Source: Pedobacter yulinensis (GTDB taxonomy: Bacteria; Bacteroidota; Bacteroidia; Sphingobacteriales; Sphingobacteriaceae). Taken from it: a stretch of DNA of 64,000 bases. Shown piece by piece: positions 2,991 to 59,266 of the stretch (position 1 is its first letter; each line of letters begins with the position of its first letter). The DNA lies in NCBI RefSeq assembly GCF_003029735.1, contig NZ_KZ686270.1, positions 310,001 to 374,000 of the forward strand, in the 5' to 3' direction. The notes below the pieces were generated by a model. That model had not been told where the DNA came from. It saw only the letters and a program-made list of their open reading frames with translations, and did no database searches. The translations under genes were made by a program, and so were the position numbers.

Positions 2991-4940
2991 ATGTTCAAAA
3001 AACTATTCAGAAAAAAAACGATCGAAAAGATTTTGCTAGATGCGCAGCGGGGTTATGGCGAACACGACCATAGCCTCCGTAAAACGCTTGGCGTACGTGA
3101 CCTGACAGCCTTCGGCATTGCGGCCATTATCGGCGCCGGAATTTTCAGCACCATAGGCAAGGCCAGCGCCGATGGCGGTCCGGCAGTCATTTTTCTTTTC
3201 ATCTTTACGGCAATAGCCTGTAGTTTCGCCGCTTTTGCGTATGCTGAATTTGCCTCTATGGTTCCCGTTTCGGGAAGTGCTTATACCTACTCTTACGTGG
3301 CCTTCGGCGAACTTGTGGCCTGGATTATCGGGTGGTCGCTGATCATGGAGTATGCAGTCGGGAACATCACAGTCGCCATTTCCTGGTCTGACTACTTTAC
3401 AGGTCTCCTGTCATCGATCAATATACCGGCCCTGGACATCAAAGGCATCCATTTGCCCGACTGGATGACCATGGACTACCTGTCTGCCTACAATGGTCAC
3501 CTGCGGGCCGAGGCTCTTCAGAAAGCGGGAACAAATGCCCTCAATCTGGACGAGGCGACTGCGGTAGCCAGTAATGCCTGGAATACCGCGCCGACCATTG
3601 GCAGTTTTCATTTCGTGGCAGACCTTCCCGCATTGGGCATCATTATTTTCATTACCTGGCTCGTATACCGCGGCATGAAAGAGTCAAGAAATGCAAGCAA
3701 CGCCATGGTCGTTGTTAAACTGGCGGTGATCCTGCTGGTCATCTCGGTCGGCATTTTTTATGTGGATACCAACAACTGGAATCCTTTTGCCCCAAACGGG
3801 GTCTCGGGCATACTAAAAGGCGTTTCTGCCGTTTTCTTTGCATACATTGGTTTTGACGCCATCTCGACTACTGCCGAAGAGTGCCGTGACCCGCAGCGCG
3901 ATCTGCCCAGGGGCATGATGTGGGCCATCATTATCTGTACGGTATTGTATGTTGCCATTGCGCTCGTGCTGACAGGAATTGTCAATTACAAAAGCCTGGC
4001 CGTAGGCGACCCGCTTGCTTACGTGTTCGATAAAATAGACCTGAAGCTCATGAGCGGTATTATTGCCGTCAGTGCCATTTTTGCCATGGCCAGCGTATTG
4101 CTGGTTTTCCAGCTGGGCCAGCCCCGCATCTGGATGAGCATGAGCCGCGACGGCCTGCTGCCCAAAGCTTTTTCACGCATTCACCCGGTACACAAAACGC
4201 CTTCTTTTGCCACCATCGTGGTCGGTTTTGTGGTGGCAGTTCCCTCACTTTTCATGAATCTGACCATAGTTACCGATCTGTGCTCTATCGGCACGCTGTT
4301 CGCCTTCGTGCTGGTCTGCGCTGGCGTGCTGGTGCTGCAGAACCGGCCCGACGTAAAACGGGGCAGGTTTAGAATCCCTTACCTGAACAGCCGGTACATT
4401 ATTCCGCTGGCATTTGCCGCCTTACTTGTCCTTGCCTTTACGCGGTACAAGCAGGAAACGCTTGCCTTCGTAACGAATGAAGCAAAATTGAATGAGCCCG
4501 TTACCTTTGTAACCTCGCTTGACTCTGTCGAACTGGCTACCGTGCGCAGGGAGATCAGCACGTTTATGGCGCCGGTTATCCTGCCCAAAGGCAATATCGA
4601 TGCCGTGGCGTACCTGACAGACCTGAAAGCCGACCGCTATGCAGCCTTTATTAACCAGAGCAAAATAACTCAGGATAAAAAATACGAATCAGGATGGGCA
4701 CTGTTCAAGCATAAAATACCCATGTGGATCTTTTTGGCAATCTCTGTGGTCATTGCCGTTTTCTGTGTTACGCACAAACTCTCGCTGATTCCCGTACTGG
4801 GACTGATCAGCTGCCTGTATATGATGTGCGAGCTGGGTATATCAAACTGGATCGGCTTCGGCATCTGGCTGGTTATTGGCCTGGTTATTTACTTCATGTA
4901 CGGATACCGTCACAGCAAACTGCGCCAAACTGAGGCATAA
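2991..4940 (+). CDS. APC-superfamily amino acid permease (CAT/YfnA-like) with extra soluble insertion
   Basis: A 649-residue inner-membrane amino acid/proton symporter of the APC superfamily, closest in style to cationic amino acid transporters. The N-terminal signature GIAAIIGAGIFSTIG lies in the first membrane segment, and the EECRDPQRDLPRG motif follows TM6-7, both hallmarks of the CAT/YfnA group. It is longer than the usual 480-560 residues. A hydrophilic stretch of about 55 residues separates TM4 and TM5, and a second of about 90 residues (roughly 485-573) precedes the last pair of membrane segments. The substrate cannot be deduced from sequence. Confidence 0.88.
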   Translation: MFKKLFRKKTIEKILLDAQRGYGEHDHSLRKTLGVRDLTAFGIAAIIGAGIFSTIGKASADGGPAVIFLFIFTAIACSFAAFAYAEFASMVPVSGSAYTYSYVAFGELVAWIIGWSLIMEYAVGNITVAISWSDYFTGLLSSINIPALDIKGIHLPDWMTMDYLSAYNGHLRAEALQKAGTNALNLDEATAVASNAWNTAPTIGSFHFVADLPALGIIIFITWLVYRGMKESRNASNAMVVVKLAVILLVISVGIFYVDTNNWNPFAPNGVSGILKGVSAVFFAYIGFDAISTTAEECRDPQRDLPRGMMWAIIICTVLYVAIALVLTGIVNYKSLAVGDPLAYVFDKIDLKLMSGIIAVSAIFAMASVLLVFQLGQPRIWMSMSRDGLLPKAFSRIHPVHKTPSFATIVVGFVVAVPSLFMNLTIVTDLCSIGTLFAFVLVCAGVLVLQNRPDVKRGRFRIPYLNSRYIIPLAFAALLVLAFTRYKQETLAFVTNEAKLNEPVTFVTSLDSVELATVRREISTFMAPVILPKGNIDAVAYLTDLKADRYAAFINQSKITQDKKYESGWALFKHKIPMWIFLAISVVIAVFCVTHKLSLIPVLGLISCLYMMCELGISNWIGFGIWLVIGLVIYFMYGYRHSKLRQTEA

Positions 4941-5006: not shown

Positions 5007-5037
5007 TTTGCCCTTCAAAATTAATAGGTTATATTTA
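5007..5037 (+). promoter_or_regulatory. Bacteroidetes-type promoter for the small RNA
   Basis: TTTG (5007-5010), 19 bases, TATATTTA (5030-5037): one mismatch, at the last base of the -7 box. It points into the intergenic region with no gene on this strand downstream, which is why a non-coding transcript starting near 5043 is proposed. Confidence 0.55.
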
Positions 5038-5042
5038 CATAT

Positions 5043-5178
5043 AGTCTTCCGGGAAAAAGATAGATAACGTGGGTATGGTTCCGGAACGGGTCTTAAAGGC
5101 CCCCACAAGTTGTTCCCTCCTAGTTATCCCTATAGTTTGTTTTACAAACAAAGGCTCCATCCCCCGGAGCCTTTATTG
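5043..5178 (+). ncRNA. Putative structured small RNA with own promoter and terminator
   Basis: About 130 bases between the permease and kup that are bounded by a promoter and an intrinsic terminator and hold no plausible ORF. Visible pairings are nested: GATAAC (5063-5068) with GTTATC (5123-5128), GTGGG (5069-5073) with CCCAC (5102-5106), and GGGTC (5088-5092) with GGCCC (5098-5102) around a TTAAA loop. GTTCCGGAAC (5078-5087) is self-complementary. A small hairpin GTTTGT/ACAAAC lies just before the terminator. Size and a stem with an internal bubble would be compatible with a 6S-like RNA, but I cannot assign a family. It lacks the SRP RNA domain IV signature. The strand is set by the promoter. 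Confidence 0.5.
5150..5174. terminator. Bidirectional intrinsic terminator
   Basis: Perfect 9-bp stem AAAGGCTCC / GGAGCCTTT around a 7-base loop, T-rich on both sides. It can end the small RNA on the plus strand and kup on the minus strand. Confidence 0.8.
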
Positions 5179-5189
5179 TTTTACAGCGG

Positions 5190-7142
5190 TCAGACCGGGA
5201 GCCGGTTCAGTTCAATATCATCTGGCGTAACAAAGATTAGCGGCACCTTCTCCACATCCACGTAACTGCTGTCCAACCCGAAACTGCGTTCCTCAGAAAG
5301 ACTCAGGCGTTTCAGCACGAAGTAATAATCCATAATAGACCGCTCGTAGAAACCGAGTTTATTAAATTTAGACAGGTGTTTTTCAAGTAACACAAAGCGG
5401 AAATCGCCTGCAATTTTGTGCCGGTTCAGCGACGTGTATTGGCTGGTAATGTCGACCTCACCATTTTTAACCAGTTCCTCCACCACCTTGCGGTACAAAA
5501 GGTTAACACGTTGCTCAATCCTGAAGCCCAGCCTGAAGTCAATACGGATCAGTTTGCCCGGTATCAGGAACTCGACCTTATAGTCGGTTGTATAGGGCTC
5601 GTCCATCACATCGACGTGAACCAGCCAGTAGATATCGGCCCGCTTTGGCTCCTTTTGGATAATTGAATAAATAATCTTTGACTCGATCTCTGTTTTAAAG
5701 TTTGCGCTGGTCAGGTAAACGAGCTGGGAAGAATATTTTGGTACGCTGATATCTTCGCTTAGCTCGCTGATGATGGGGAAATAGTCTTCGATCTCCACAT
5801 ACTTTACAAAGCGATTCTTGATTTTCCTGGCTGCATACCAGGTCCACATGACACTGAAAAGCAGCGAGCCGATCAGCACGGTAACCCAGCCGCCATGCAG
5901 GAATTTGGCCACGTTTCCAACCAGGAACGTAAGTTCAATGACACCGTAAACAACAACGAAAATGGCAATGATGTAGACTGGTATCTTTTTCCGGCGCATG
6001 TAGGTGGCCACCAGGACCGTGGTCATGAGAAAAGTCAGGTTGATGGCCAGGCCATACGCCCCTTCCATTTTTTCAGACTCGCGCAGGGTAAGCACGATGA
6101 TGACACAGCCTATAAAGAGCAGCCAGTTAATGGACGGCACATAAAGCTGTCCTTTCTGATCGCTCGGGTAATTGATCTTGATCTTGGGCCAGAGGTTGAG
6201 CCTGACCGCTTCTGAAATAAGCGTGAACGACCCGGTAATCATGGCCTGGCTCGCGATGACCGCAGCCATGGTAGCCAGGATAACAATGGCAACCACATAA
6301 TTATCGGGTACGATCTCAAAGAAGGGGTTTACCTTGTCATAATTGCCCGAGTGGTGCATCATCCAAACGCCCTGCCCGAGGTAATTGATGATCAGCGTCG
6401 CTTTTACAAAAATCCAGCTGATGCGAATATTTTTACGGCCGCAGTGGCCCAGGTCTGAATACAACGCTTCGGCACCCGTTGTACATAAAAAAACGCCGCC
6501 CAGGATAACGAGCGCCATTGGGTTGGTAACCAGCAGGTGTACTGCATAATAAGGGCTCAGGGCCTTCAGAATACTGAGGTCCTGGAGCACAAAAATGCCA
6601 CCCAGGACACCGAGCACCGAAAACCAGAGAAACATGATCGGCCCAAAAAGCTTGCCGACCAGGTTGGTACCGAATTGCTGAATAACGAACAGCAGCACAA
6701 TGATGGCCAGCACAATCGGGATGACCTGAACCTGCGGAAACTTGACCTGCAACCCCTCTACGGCAGAAGTCACCGTGATACTGGGCGTAATGATTCCGTC
6801 GGCAAGCATGGCGCAGCCACCCACGATGGCCGGAATGACCAGCCAGCGTGCTTTTTTCCGCACAAGTGAGTAGAGAGAAAAGATGCCGCCTTCACCTTTA
6901 TTGTCGGCACGCAGCGTTACGACAACATATTTGATCGTAGTTTGCAGTGTAAGCGTCCAAATAATACAGGAAAGAGAGCCCAAAACCACATCAGGCGTGA
7001 TGTCTCCCCCGTTTCCTTTAACGCTGTTGAAGATGGCCTTCAGGGTATAGAGCGGAGATGTTCCGATGTCGCCGTAAACAATTCCTAAACTGATGAGGAG
7101 GCCGGCGGCGGTGAGTGTGTTTAAATTTTTGTGACTCGACAC
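5190..7142 (-). CDS. kup: KUP-family potassium uptake protein
   Basis: A 650-residue K+/H+ symporter of the Kup/HAK/KT family in the inner membrane. The N-terminal family signature GIVYGDIGTSPLY is intact in TM1, and GGVFLCTTGAEALYSDLGH (TM5-6 region) is another hallmark. About twelve hydrophobic segments are followed by a cytoplasmic C-terminal domain of about 180 residues. Length fits the bacterial family (620-650). The start codon is GTG; no in-frame ATG lies just upstream, and the N-terminus MSSHKNLNTLTAAGLL looks like other Kup proteins. A perfect promoter sits 20 bases upstream, so the leader would be only about 15 bases. Confidence 0.96.
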   Translation of the reverse strand: MSSHKNLNTLTAAGLLISLGIVYGDIGTSPLYTLKAIFNSVKGNGGDITPDVVLGSLSCIIWTLTLQTTIKYVVVTLRADNKGEGGIFSLYSLVRKKARWLVIPAIVGGCAMLADGIITPSITVTSAVEGLQVKFPQVQVIPIVLAIIVLLFVIQQFGTNLVGKLFGPIMFLWFSVLGVLGGIFVLQDLSILKALSPYYAVHLLVTNPMALVILGGVFLCTTGAEALYSDLGHCGRKNIRISWIFVKATLIINYLGQGVWMMHHSGNYDKVNPFFEIVPDNYVVAIVILATMAAVIASQAMITGSFTLISEAVRLNLWPKIKINYPSDQKGQLYVPSINWLLFIGCVIIVLTLRESEKMEGAYGLAINLTFLMTTVLVATYMRRKKIPVYIIAIFVVVYGVIELTFLVGNVAKFLHGGWVTVLIGSLLFSVMWTWYAARKIKNRFVKYVEIEDYFPIISELSEDISVPKYSSQLVYLTSANFKTEIESKIIYSIIQKEPKRADIYWLVHVDVMDEPYTTDYKVEFLIPGKLIRIDFRLGFRIEQRVNLLYRKVVEELVKNGEVDITSQYTSLNRHKIAGDFRFVLLEKHLSKFNKLGFYERSIMDYYFVLKRLSLSEERSFGLDSSYVDVEKVPLIFVTPDDIELNRLPV

Positions 7143-55492: not shown

Positions 55493-55563
55493 CACGGGAA
55501 CAAGGATTCGAACCCTGATCAAAGGTTTTGGAGACCTCTATTCTACCATTGAACTATTCCCGT
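55493..55563 (-). tRNA. tRNA-Trp (CCA anticodon)
   Basis: Cloverleaf on the minus strand: acceptor ACGGGAA/TTCCCGT, discriminator G, anticodon loop CTCCAAA with CCA, T arm CAGGG-TTCGAAT-CCTTG. No encoded 3'-CCA. It lies between tuf and secE, an insertion relative to the E. coli order. Confidence 0.95.
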
Positions 55564-55578
55564 GTATGAATAGTATTC

Positions 55579-55639
55579 AGTAGTTCGTATTTAGTATTCA
55601 GACTTCCGTCTGAACACCAAATACTTTATATGAACTACT
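55579..55639 (-). other. Long imperfect hairpin downstream of tuf
   Basis: AGTAGTTC / GAACTACT (55579-55586, 55632-55639) encloses TTCAGAC-TTCC-GTCTGAA (55597-55614). TAGTATTCAG is also repeated directly. No T run follows, so this is likely an RNase processing or mRNA stability element rather than a terminator. Confidence 0.45.
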
Positions 55640-55647
55640 AAAAATTT

Positions 55648-56835
55648 CTATTTCAGGATTTCGGTTACCTGACCGGCACCTACCGTTCTGCCACCTTCAC
55701 GGATCGCGAAACGAAGACCTTTTTCCATTGCAATGGCGTTGATCAGTTTCACAGTGATGGTCACGTTATCGCCAGGCATAACCATTTCAGTACCTTCTGC
55801 AAGGGAGATTTCTCCTGTTACGTCTGTAGTACGGAAATAGAACTGAGGACGGTATTTGTTGAAGAATGGAGTGTGACGGCCACCTTCTGCTTTTGACAAT
55901 ACATAGATCTCAGCTTTGAAATCGGTGTGAGGCGTTACTGAACCTGGTTTACAGATTACCATACCGCGACGGATATCGGTTTTCTCAATACCACGAAGCA
56001 ACAGACCTACGTTATCACCAGCTTCACCGTAGTCAAGGATTTTGCGGAACATTTCCACACCTGTAACGGTTGATTTCAGGTTTTCAGCACCCATACCCAG
56101 GATCTCTACTGCATCACCAGTGTTGATCTGACCACGCTCGATACGACCGGTAGCAACTGTACCACGACCAGTGATTGAGAATACGTCTTCAACAGGCATC
56201 AGGAAAGGAAGGTCGGTCAGACGTGGAGGAATTGGAATGTAGCTGTCAACAGCGTTCATCAGCTCCATGATTTTCTCAACCCACTGAGGCTCGCCGTTCA
56301 GACCACCAAGGGCAGAACCACGGATAACAGGGATATCATCACCAGGGAATTCGTAGAACGACAGGAGTTCACGAACTTCCATTTCAACAAGATCTAACAA
56401 TTCAGGATCATCAACCATGTCCACTTTGTTCATGAACACAACCAATGAAGGTACACCTACCTGGCGGGCCAAAAGGATGTGCTCGCGGGTTTGCGGCATC
56501 GGACCGTCTGTAGACGCAACCACGATGATCGCACCGTCCATCTGCGCAGCACCTGTAACCATGTTTTTTACGTAATCCGCGTGACCTGGACAGTCAACGT
56601 GTGCATAGTGACGGTTAGCAGTTGAGTACTCAACGTGGGCAGTATTGATGGTGATACCTCTTTCTTTTTCCTCAGGAGCTGAGTCAATCGAATCGAATGA
56701 ACGGGCCTCAGATAAACCTGCGTCAGACAGTACTTTTGTAATAGCTGCAGTCAGAGTGGTTTTACCGTGGTCAACGTGACCGATAGTACCGATGTTCAAG
56801 TGCGGTTTACTCCGGTCAAATTTTTCTTTTGCCAT
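55648..56835 (-). CDS. tuf: Elongation factor Tu
   Basis: A 395-residue GTPase that delivers aminoacyl-tRNA to the ribosome. It shows [15 protein letters not shown] (P-loop), RGITIN (switch I), [12 protein letters not shown] (G3), NKVDMVDD (G4) and the beta-barrel domains 2 and 3. It is downstream of four tRNA genes, as with tufB of E. coli, and probably shares their promoter; no separate promoter is evident in the 120-base gap. Confidence 0.98.
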
Positions 56836-56956
56836 TTTTTATAACTAATTAGTAGGTTAACTTTTTTATTTTTTACTGTTGTTCTATACAAATTCAATAC
56901 AAAAAACCTTGTTCAACCATGCCTACCGGATGATTTAACAAAGCCGTCTGATCATG

Positions 56957-57028
<72 letters not shown>

Positions 57029-57093
57029 TTTTAATTTACGACAGGTTGTGTTCCTGCTACGATTCTCTATCAGTATCGTGTACGTAAATATAT

Positions 57094-57169
57094 TGGAGCG
57101 GAAGACGGGTCTCGAACCCGCAACCTATAGCTTGGAAGGCTATCGCTCTACCAATTGAGCTACTTCCGC
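57094..57169 (-). tRNA. tRNA-Gly (TCC anticodon)
   Basis: Minus-strand cloverleaf: acceptor GCGGAAG/CTTCCGC, anticodon loop CTTCCAA with TCC, T arm GCGGG-TTCGAGA-CCCGT, discriminator T and an encoded CCA. Confidence 0.97.
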
Positions 57170-57257
57170 TTTTAATGATCGAATGATTGGATGCCTCATG
57201 ACTGAACGGCCGCAGACCGGTTCATCATTCATTCACTCAAACCTTCACCCATTGGTT

Positions 57258-57343
57258 TGGTGGGGAGAGAAGGATTCGAACCTTCGAAGTCTTGCGACAA
57301 CAGAGTTACAGTCTGTCCCATTTGGCCACTCTGGTATCTCCCC
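57258..57343 (-). tRNA. tRNA-Tyr (GTA anticodon)
   Basis: Minus-strand class II cloverleaf: acceptor GGGGAGA/TCTCCCC, anticodon loop CTGTAAC with GTA, a long variable arm, T arm AAGG-TTCGAAT-CCTT, discriminator A and an encoded CCA. Confidence 0.97.
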
Positions 57344-57385
57344 CCGATTACGCCCGCCAGATGTGCATCCGGCGAACATAAAAAG

Positions 57386-57458
<73 letters not shown>

Positions 57459-59071: not shown

Positions 59072-59266
59072 TTAGAGACCGGCTTCCTGTTGCAAGCCTT
59101 GTTTGTAGATGGCGTGTTTAACCTGTGTACGACGGGTTACGGAACGTTTCTCATATGCCTGACGACTGCGAAGTTCTCTTAATACACCTGTTTTTTCAAA
59201 TTTCTTTTTGAAGCGTTTCAAGGCTTTGTCCAATGATTCGCCGTCTTTAATGTTGATAATGATCAT
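59072..59266 (-). CDS. rpsU: 30S ribosomal protein bS21
   Basis: A 64-residue basic protein of the small subunit platform. The family start MIIINIKDGESLDKALKRFKKK and the Arg-rich ELRSRQAYEKRSVTRR are clear. In Bacteroidota, bS21 (with bS6 and bS18) sequesters the 3'-end of 16S rRNA, which explains why SD sequences are little used. The gene has a promoter and terminator of its own and, unusually, an AGGAGGT sequence upstream. This fits reported autoregulation of rpsU in Flavobacterium. Confidence 0.95.
   Translation of the reverse strand: MIIINIKDGESLDKALKRFKKKFEKTGVLRELRSRQAYEKRSVTRRTQVKHAIYKQGLQQEAGL

Follow-up and report, generated by a model that had tools for sequence, protein, structure and literature searches.

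The gap between an amino-acid permease gene and kup in Pedobacter yulinensis (positions 5007–5178 of the window, that is, of the whole 64 000-nucleotide stretch of DNA analysed here) very probably holds a real RNA gene, judging from its sequence and from that of its relatives. Our best reading overall, held with moderate confidence, is that this is an independently transcribed, Pedobacter-specific, trans-acting sRNA whose C-rich boxes pair with G-rich sites on mRNAs. A sequence-only reading of the same DNA had proposed an unassigned structured RNA, probably acting in trans, and that proposal is supported by a promoter box, a terminator, covariation and a predicted open stretch among relatives, the lack of an Rfam match, and the lack of a following gene on the same strand in the window.

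Promoter, terminator and fold at the P. yulinensis locus

The RNA locus lies within a 249-base gap between two stop codons, that of an amino-acid permease of the APC family (2991–4940, plus strand; Pfam AA_permease_2, E 9e-60) and that of the potassium transporter gene kup (5190–7142, minus strand; Pfam K_trans, E 9e-159); both genes are outside the RNA gene. By protein similarity, the window's Kup stands nearest to named species of Pedobacter. As the sequence-only reading had stated, the gap is gene-free, with no listed open reading frame of at least 60 amino acids between the permease stop at 4940 and the kup stop at 5190, and the plus strand has no downstream gene in the window, the next gene being the convergent kup on the opposite strand. 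A cis-regulatory leader or riboswitch would be followed by a gene on its own strand, which is not what is found at the window's locus. The convergent permease/kup layout recurs in many of the relatives' loci that we compared, and the permease–kup gaps of several relatives hold a common C-rich stretch followed by two hairpins. Elsewhere in the window, a cluster of five tRNA genes occupies 55493–57458 on the minus strand.

A promoter of the form TTTG-N19-TATATTTA, claimed earlier from the letters, is indeed present on the plus strand: a predicted -33 element TTTG (5007–5010), as read in the sequence, stands 19 bases before a -7 box TATATTTA (5030–5037), for which the family has the variants TACATTAG, TACATTTA and others. 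The exact form and spacing of TTTG are not kept in the nearest relative (L083). For the -7 box, the exact variant TACATTAG is found at most 105 bases upstream in 20 of the 37 distinct elements versus 0.4% of simulated sequences; at least six of the eight letters of the box consensus, itself derived from the element set that was scored, are found in 34 of 37 versus 21%; and a box of the general form is found in all 37 versus 47%. If the -7 box lies at -12 to -5 relative to the transcription start, a placement taken from the available text of PMC9723704, the predicted sRNA would run from 5042 to 5178 on the plus strand and be about 135 nt long. The strong terminator reported at its end is also there, as a nine-pair hairpin (5150–5174) followed by ATTGTTTT; this intrinsic terminator, AAAGGCTCC-ATCCCCC-GGAGCCTTT with a C-rich loop and a T-rich tail (5150–5178, plus strand), is conserved across the family, most commonly as GGCTCC-TCCCC-GGAGCC. 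By sequence, then, the RNA has a promoter and a terminator of its own, as is expected of a trans-acting, base-pairing sRNA.

Upstream of the promoter box, 15 of 36 distinct members carry TGTAGAA-like words at a distance of 64–65 or 86 bases from the -7 box, two fixed distances that differ by 21–22 bases. Several relatives also have upstream TTCYACA..TCTACA repeats spaced by about 21 bases (L183, L209, L084 and L251 offer examples of such words or repeats); the window's copy is without them. Their placement at two fixed distances suggests a candidate regulator site.

The nested complementary segments to which the sequence-only reading had pointed stand only in part. All three exist as complementary strings, namely GATAAC (5063–5068) with GTTATC (5123–5128), GTGGG (5069–5073) with CCCAC (5102–5106) and GGGTC (5088–5092) with GGCCC (5098–5102), but as a fold without the terminator (5046–5140) the sequence does no better than chance (z = +1.1; 182 of 200 shuffles matched or exceeded its stability). 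With the terminator included, the plus strand folds at z = -2.1 (6 of 200 shuffles equally good), and the reverse strand gives z = 0.0 (96 of 200). Only GGGTC/GGCCC has a counterpart in the nearest relative, where a GGTC..GACC hairpin occupies the same place, whereas GATAAC/GTTATC and GTGGG/CCCAC are, by eye, not kept there; the GATAAC/GTTATC pairing would also mask the stretch of the RNA that is best conserved. The parts that we annotate on the plus strand are a 5′ hairpin GGGTC-TTAAA-GGCCC (5088–5102) upstream of the core; the conserved core CCCTCCTAGTTATCCCTAT (5115–5133), with two C-rich boxes, which is the proposed pairing or binding region (alignments A1 and A2); and a second hairpin GTTTGT-TTT-ACAAAC (5135–5149), the short form in this lineage of a hairpin that covaries across the family. 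The core is predicted to be mostly paired in the window's copy (accessibility 0.34) and in L083 (0.26), which argues against a pairing mechanism in just this lineage. The window's copy is a divergent member of its family.

Family anatomy and distribution in Pedobacter

Four features exceed chance, and they do so only in the comparison of relatives: the -7 box, the C-rich core, the covarying second hairpin and the terminator. A pattern search, followed by alignment of 20 distinct elements (one of them from the window), yielded a covariance model (R1); the 38 elements considered below comprise 37 that are distinct with their upstream sequence, 36 that are distinct in the alignment fitted to the model (A2, 36 rows) and 36 in the count of TGTAGAA words. 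Their plan begins with a -7 box and a 5′ hairpin of variable sequence; the C-rich core follows, and the second hairpin, which covaries, stands between the core and the terminator. The core, CCCTCC(TA)TAATTATCCCTAT, is nearly invariant, remains constant despite dissimilar sequence directly 5′ of it and is predicted to be open in most members, with a mean accessibility of 0.75 over the 37 distinct members. With the core held open, 32 of the 37 distinct elements have a 5′ helix whose end is no more than 12 nt from the core on its upstream side, and the sequences of these helices differ. A conserved unpaired region is thus predicted for the family but not for the window's own copy, at 0.34. Some members carry two extra bases within the core, an insertion that argues against a reading frame, and a protein-coding reading of the element was dropped on that account.

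Covariation was assessed on both sets of sequences. In the set of 20, both partners have changed at 7 of 18 pairs, a number reached by 4 of 500 shuffles (versions slid out of register gave 1–6), and the covariation score of 0.230 was reached by none of 500 shuffles and by no slid version (at most 0.081), while the number of pair types was equalled by 95 of 500 shuffles; in this set the covariation score is more decisive than the number of compensatory pairs. Across the 36 distinct rows of A2, compensatory change affects 9 of 18 pairs, a count that none of 500 shuffles reached, and slid versions gave 1–3. The sequence-only reading had staked its RNA on conservation and covariation among related genomes, and the family offers both, though two of the three pairings in that reading are not conserved.

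At E ≤ 0.01, R1 matched 39 of 145 Pedobacter genomes, 38 of them strongly (66.5–105.5 bits, one copy each). Carriers include Pedobacter panaciterrae and P. nutrimenti, at loci L003 and L006. The window's element is matched over 5107–5178 (66.5 bits, E 8e-11 for the genome) and is itself among the 20 sequences of the model. The remaining weak match (G108, 33.3 bits) was left out of the carriers, being essentially the terminator and lying on another contig than its permease. No match was found in the other 106 genomes of the genus, so that the RNA is either dispensable or often diverged. In 399 genomes of the taxonomic family, R1 found 25 of the genus Pedobacter, P. yulinensis included, and one weak match in another genus (G409, 31.6 bits), which was set aside as essentially a terminator that, by eye, follows another frame's end. 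Searched with at most one mismatch, the core pattern hits 23 of 400 genomes of the order, every one a Pedobacter (1 of 22 genera); this pattern is blind to cores with the two-base insertion. No convincing copy was found outside Pedobacter among the other genera sampled, where remote relatives may be missed because the large model searches used stricter filters and scored few candidates per genome. A blastn search of the gap against 58 other genomes returned only the self match, since the sequence around the core diverges.

The permease is the constant neighbour of the RNA, adjoining it in all 38 carriers. Every copy lies just downstream of this gene, 109 to 519 bases from the end of the permease match, with 37 on the permease strand and one inverted (L090/L112). 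The inverted copy keeps the core, the second hairpin and the terminator, with the box TATATTAG, and so looks like an independent unit. Other sequence stands at the same place in the 17 non-carriers that we looked at (the synteny check left out G060, G121, G130 and G146, in which the permease 3′ end is incomplete, while the model search covered all 145 genomes). Palindromic repeats (CTATCGGTYGGTG..CACCRACCG and TTGCGAGGAACGAAGCAATCT) were observed in genomes without the RNA there, in the permease–kup gaps of L015 and L092 and downstream of kup in L013. On a permease tree of 140 tips, built without the contig-end fragment L290, presence of the RNA amounts to five changes by a quick method, and a single carrier clade is not rejected (p-AU 0.151); the distribution favours vertical descent, with some copies lost or diverged. 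Four exact 18-base matches in viral contigs were rejected, as they lie in near-identical, coding-like sequence (by eye) and score 19 bits, and no relatives of the permease were found in viral contigs.

Identity and mode of action

The gap matched no family of Rfam 15 at its gathering score, with two chance matches at E ≤ 5, and ten loci of typical relatives gave nothing above chance, with no 6S RNA among 30 matches at E ≤ 10; the relatives' sub-threshold matches to Phe_leader and Atu_C8 were discarded as far under the gathering scores. Among the candidate RNAs of the phylum listed in the available text of PMC2864571 are Pedo-repair (RF01715) and Flavo-1 (RF01705), both numbered in Rfam yet unmatched at the locus at E ≤ 5. 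The predicted Pedo-repair motif apart, no published regulatory sRNA of Pedobacter was found in the open-access literature searched, and no report of the letters of the core was found there either. With neither Rfam match nor literature report found, we regard the element as a new family of a known kind, the sRNAs. The C-rich sRNAs of the RsaE/RoxS type in Firmicutes likewise expose UCCC-rich boxes, more than one per RNA. Their boxes meet Shine–Dalgarno (SD) sites, which are rare in Bacteroidota, and the Rfam search gave no match at the Pedobacter locus. Rfp18 of Flavobacterium, compared here by description, is a trans-acting sRNA that likewise occurs genus-wide, in a phylum whose promoters are unusual and whose SD sites are few; for Rfp18, a deletion effect and predicted targets are given (PMC9723704).

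Trans action is the simplest reading of an RNA that stands alone, ends in a terminator, keeps a conserved stretch open and is followed by no gene, and we lean, modestly, towards base pairing as its mode of action. In such a mechanism, the RNA would be transcribed from its own sigma-A-type promoter, the open core would offer two C-rich boxes, CCCUCCU and UUAUCCCUA, to G-rich sites on mRNAs, and the pairing would alter the translation or stability of those mRNAs. Because the spacer between the boxes gains two bases in some members, the boxes are probably separate modules rather than parts of one rigid duplex.

Simple searches for targets gave counts under those of reversed controls: the complement of the core (GU-tolerant, at most one mismatch) had 47 sites across 12 genomes, with the locus itself accounting for 10, versus 60 for the reversed sequence, and in 20 genomes the complement of one box followed by an ATG within 30 nt occurred at 55 sites (11 being the locus itself) versus 61 reversed, and that of the other box at 25 (9 being the locus itself) versus 32 reversed. 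At the loci examined, box-complement sites outside the RNA lie mostly inside long frames. One such site in G067 precedes a 432-amino-acid frame; the sole near-start site that was repeated (in G076, G084 and G135) lies inside a long frame, transporter-like by eye, just before an internal ATG. Within the window, the duplex with the permease mRNA (-20.7 kcal/mol) was the best of up to 52 predicted ORFs; we attribute it to chance, as its site is upstream of the likely permease promoter TAAGTTTG (by eye) and the value in L083 is -9.2. As a target, kup was unremarkable (-9.3), and the SD of rpsU was set aside as a generic match. The rpsU gene (bS21; approximately 59099–59257, minus strand) has a strong SD-like site before its ATG, and a GAGGAGG, GAGGGGG, AAGGAGG or AAGGGGG stands at that position in each of the 10 Pedobacter genomes read (L291–L300).

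The main rival to base pairing is a protein-sequestering RNA, in which two C-rich segments, the core and the loop of the terminator, would bind an RNA-binding protein and titrate it off mRNAs, an idea that we consider unlikely on the whole but not far-fetched. The near-invariant open core, at about 19 bases, exceeds the usual seed and could equally be a protein site, the terminator loop adds a third C-rich stretch to the two modules with their flexible spacer, and complements in mRNAs were not above control; however, known titrating RNAs repeat an identical motif in hairpin loops, and no such repeated motif is present here. The same core contains CCUCCU, which equals the anti-SD of 16S rRNA, and the RNA might instead be a dual-box C-rich regulator that exposes this anti-SD mimic and selects a few mRNAs with strong SDs, above all rpsU. 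SD-like sites precede rpsU in all 10 carriers read, where the generic core would form duplexes of -10.6 to -14.8 kcal/mol, yet the match is mostly a six-base one that any SD would give, and TTAGGAGGGC sites near an ATG do not exceed their control. Bacteroidota are said to rely little on SD sites, and their ribosomes hide their anti-SD. We give this selective anti-SD-like action a low probability; if true, a dual-box anti-SD-like RNA would tune bS21 and translation.

Two further alternatives concern what kind of gene, if any, occupies the gap. It is improbable, in our estimation, that there is no separate RNA gene and that the element is the 3′ end of the permease mRNA with its terminator, or a terminator common with kup. 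Such an arrangement would suit the fact that 37 of the 38 copies share the strand of the permease, at 109 to 519 bases past its match, as well as the convergence of permease and kup in many compared loci and the occurrence of a general-form box in 47% of simulated sequences too; but a terminator needs neither the core nor a covarying second hairpin, near-consensus boxes (at least 6 of 8 letters) are found in 34 of 37 elements versus 21% of simulated sequences, one genome has the copy inverted, and different sequence occupies the place in the 17 non-carriers inspected. The sequence-only reading had itself offered a 6S-like RNA as its example of a trans-acting RNA; such an RNA would bind RNA polymerase by imitating an open promoter, and this we judge very improbable. 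The length and the stand-alone gene are shared with 6S RNA (RF00013) and 6S-Flavo (RF01685), and the place of a 6S RNA in Pedobacter seems vacant: RF00013 gave no match in the P. yulinensis genome, the sole genome searched with it, and RF01685 gave none in 14 Pedobacter genomes, a weak negative in that none of 14 control genomes passed the cut-off either. A Pedobacter 6S RNA may be too diverged for the Rfam models, or absent. The present RNA, however, has no closing stem and central bubble: no rod is formed by pairing of its two ends, and the core-open folds of relatives are separate hairpins around an open core, with the terminator hairpin as the 3′ end. Nor did the 6S and 6S-Flavo models, which the earlier reading had named as the check, match at the locus at E ≤ 5. 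Finally, a 6S RNA is expected to be general, whereas this RNA is patchy, with no match in 106 of 145 Pedobacter genomes.

We therefore return to a trans-acting sRNA, particular to Pedobacter, whose C-rich boxes would pair with G-rich mRNA sites. With both carriers and non-carriers in one genus, and with a defined gene and a conserved stretch, the family makes the action of sRNAs testable in the SD-poor Bacteroidota.
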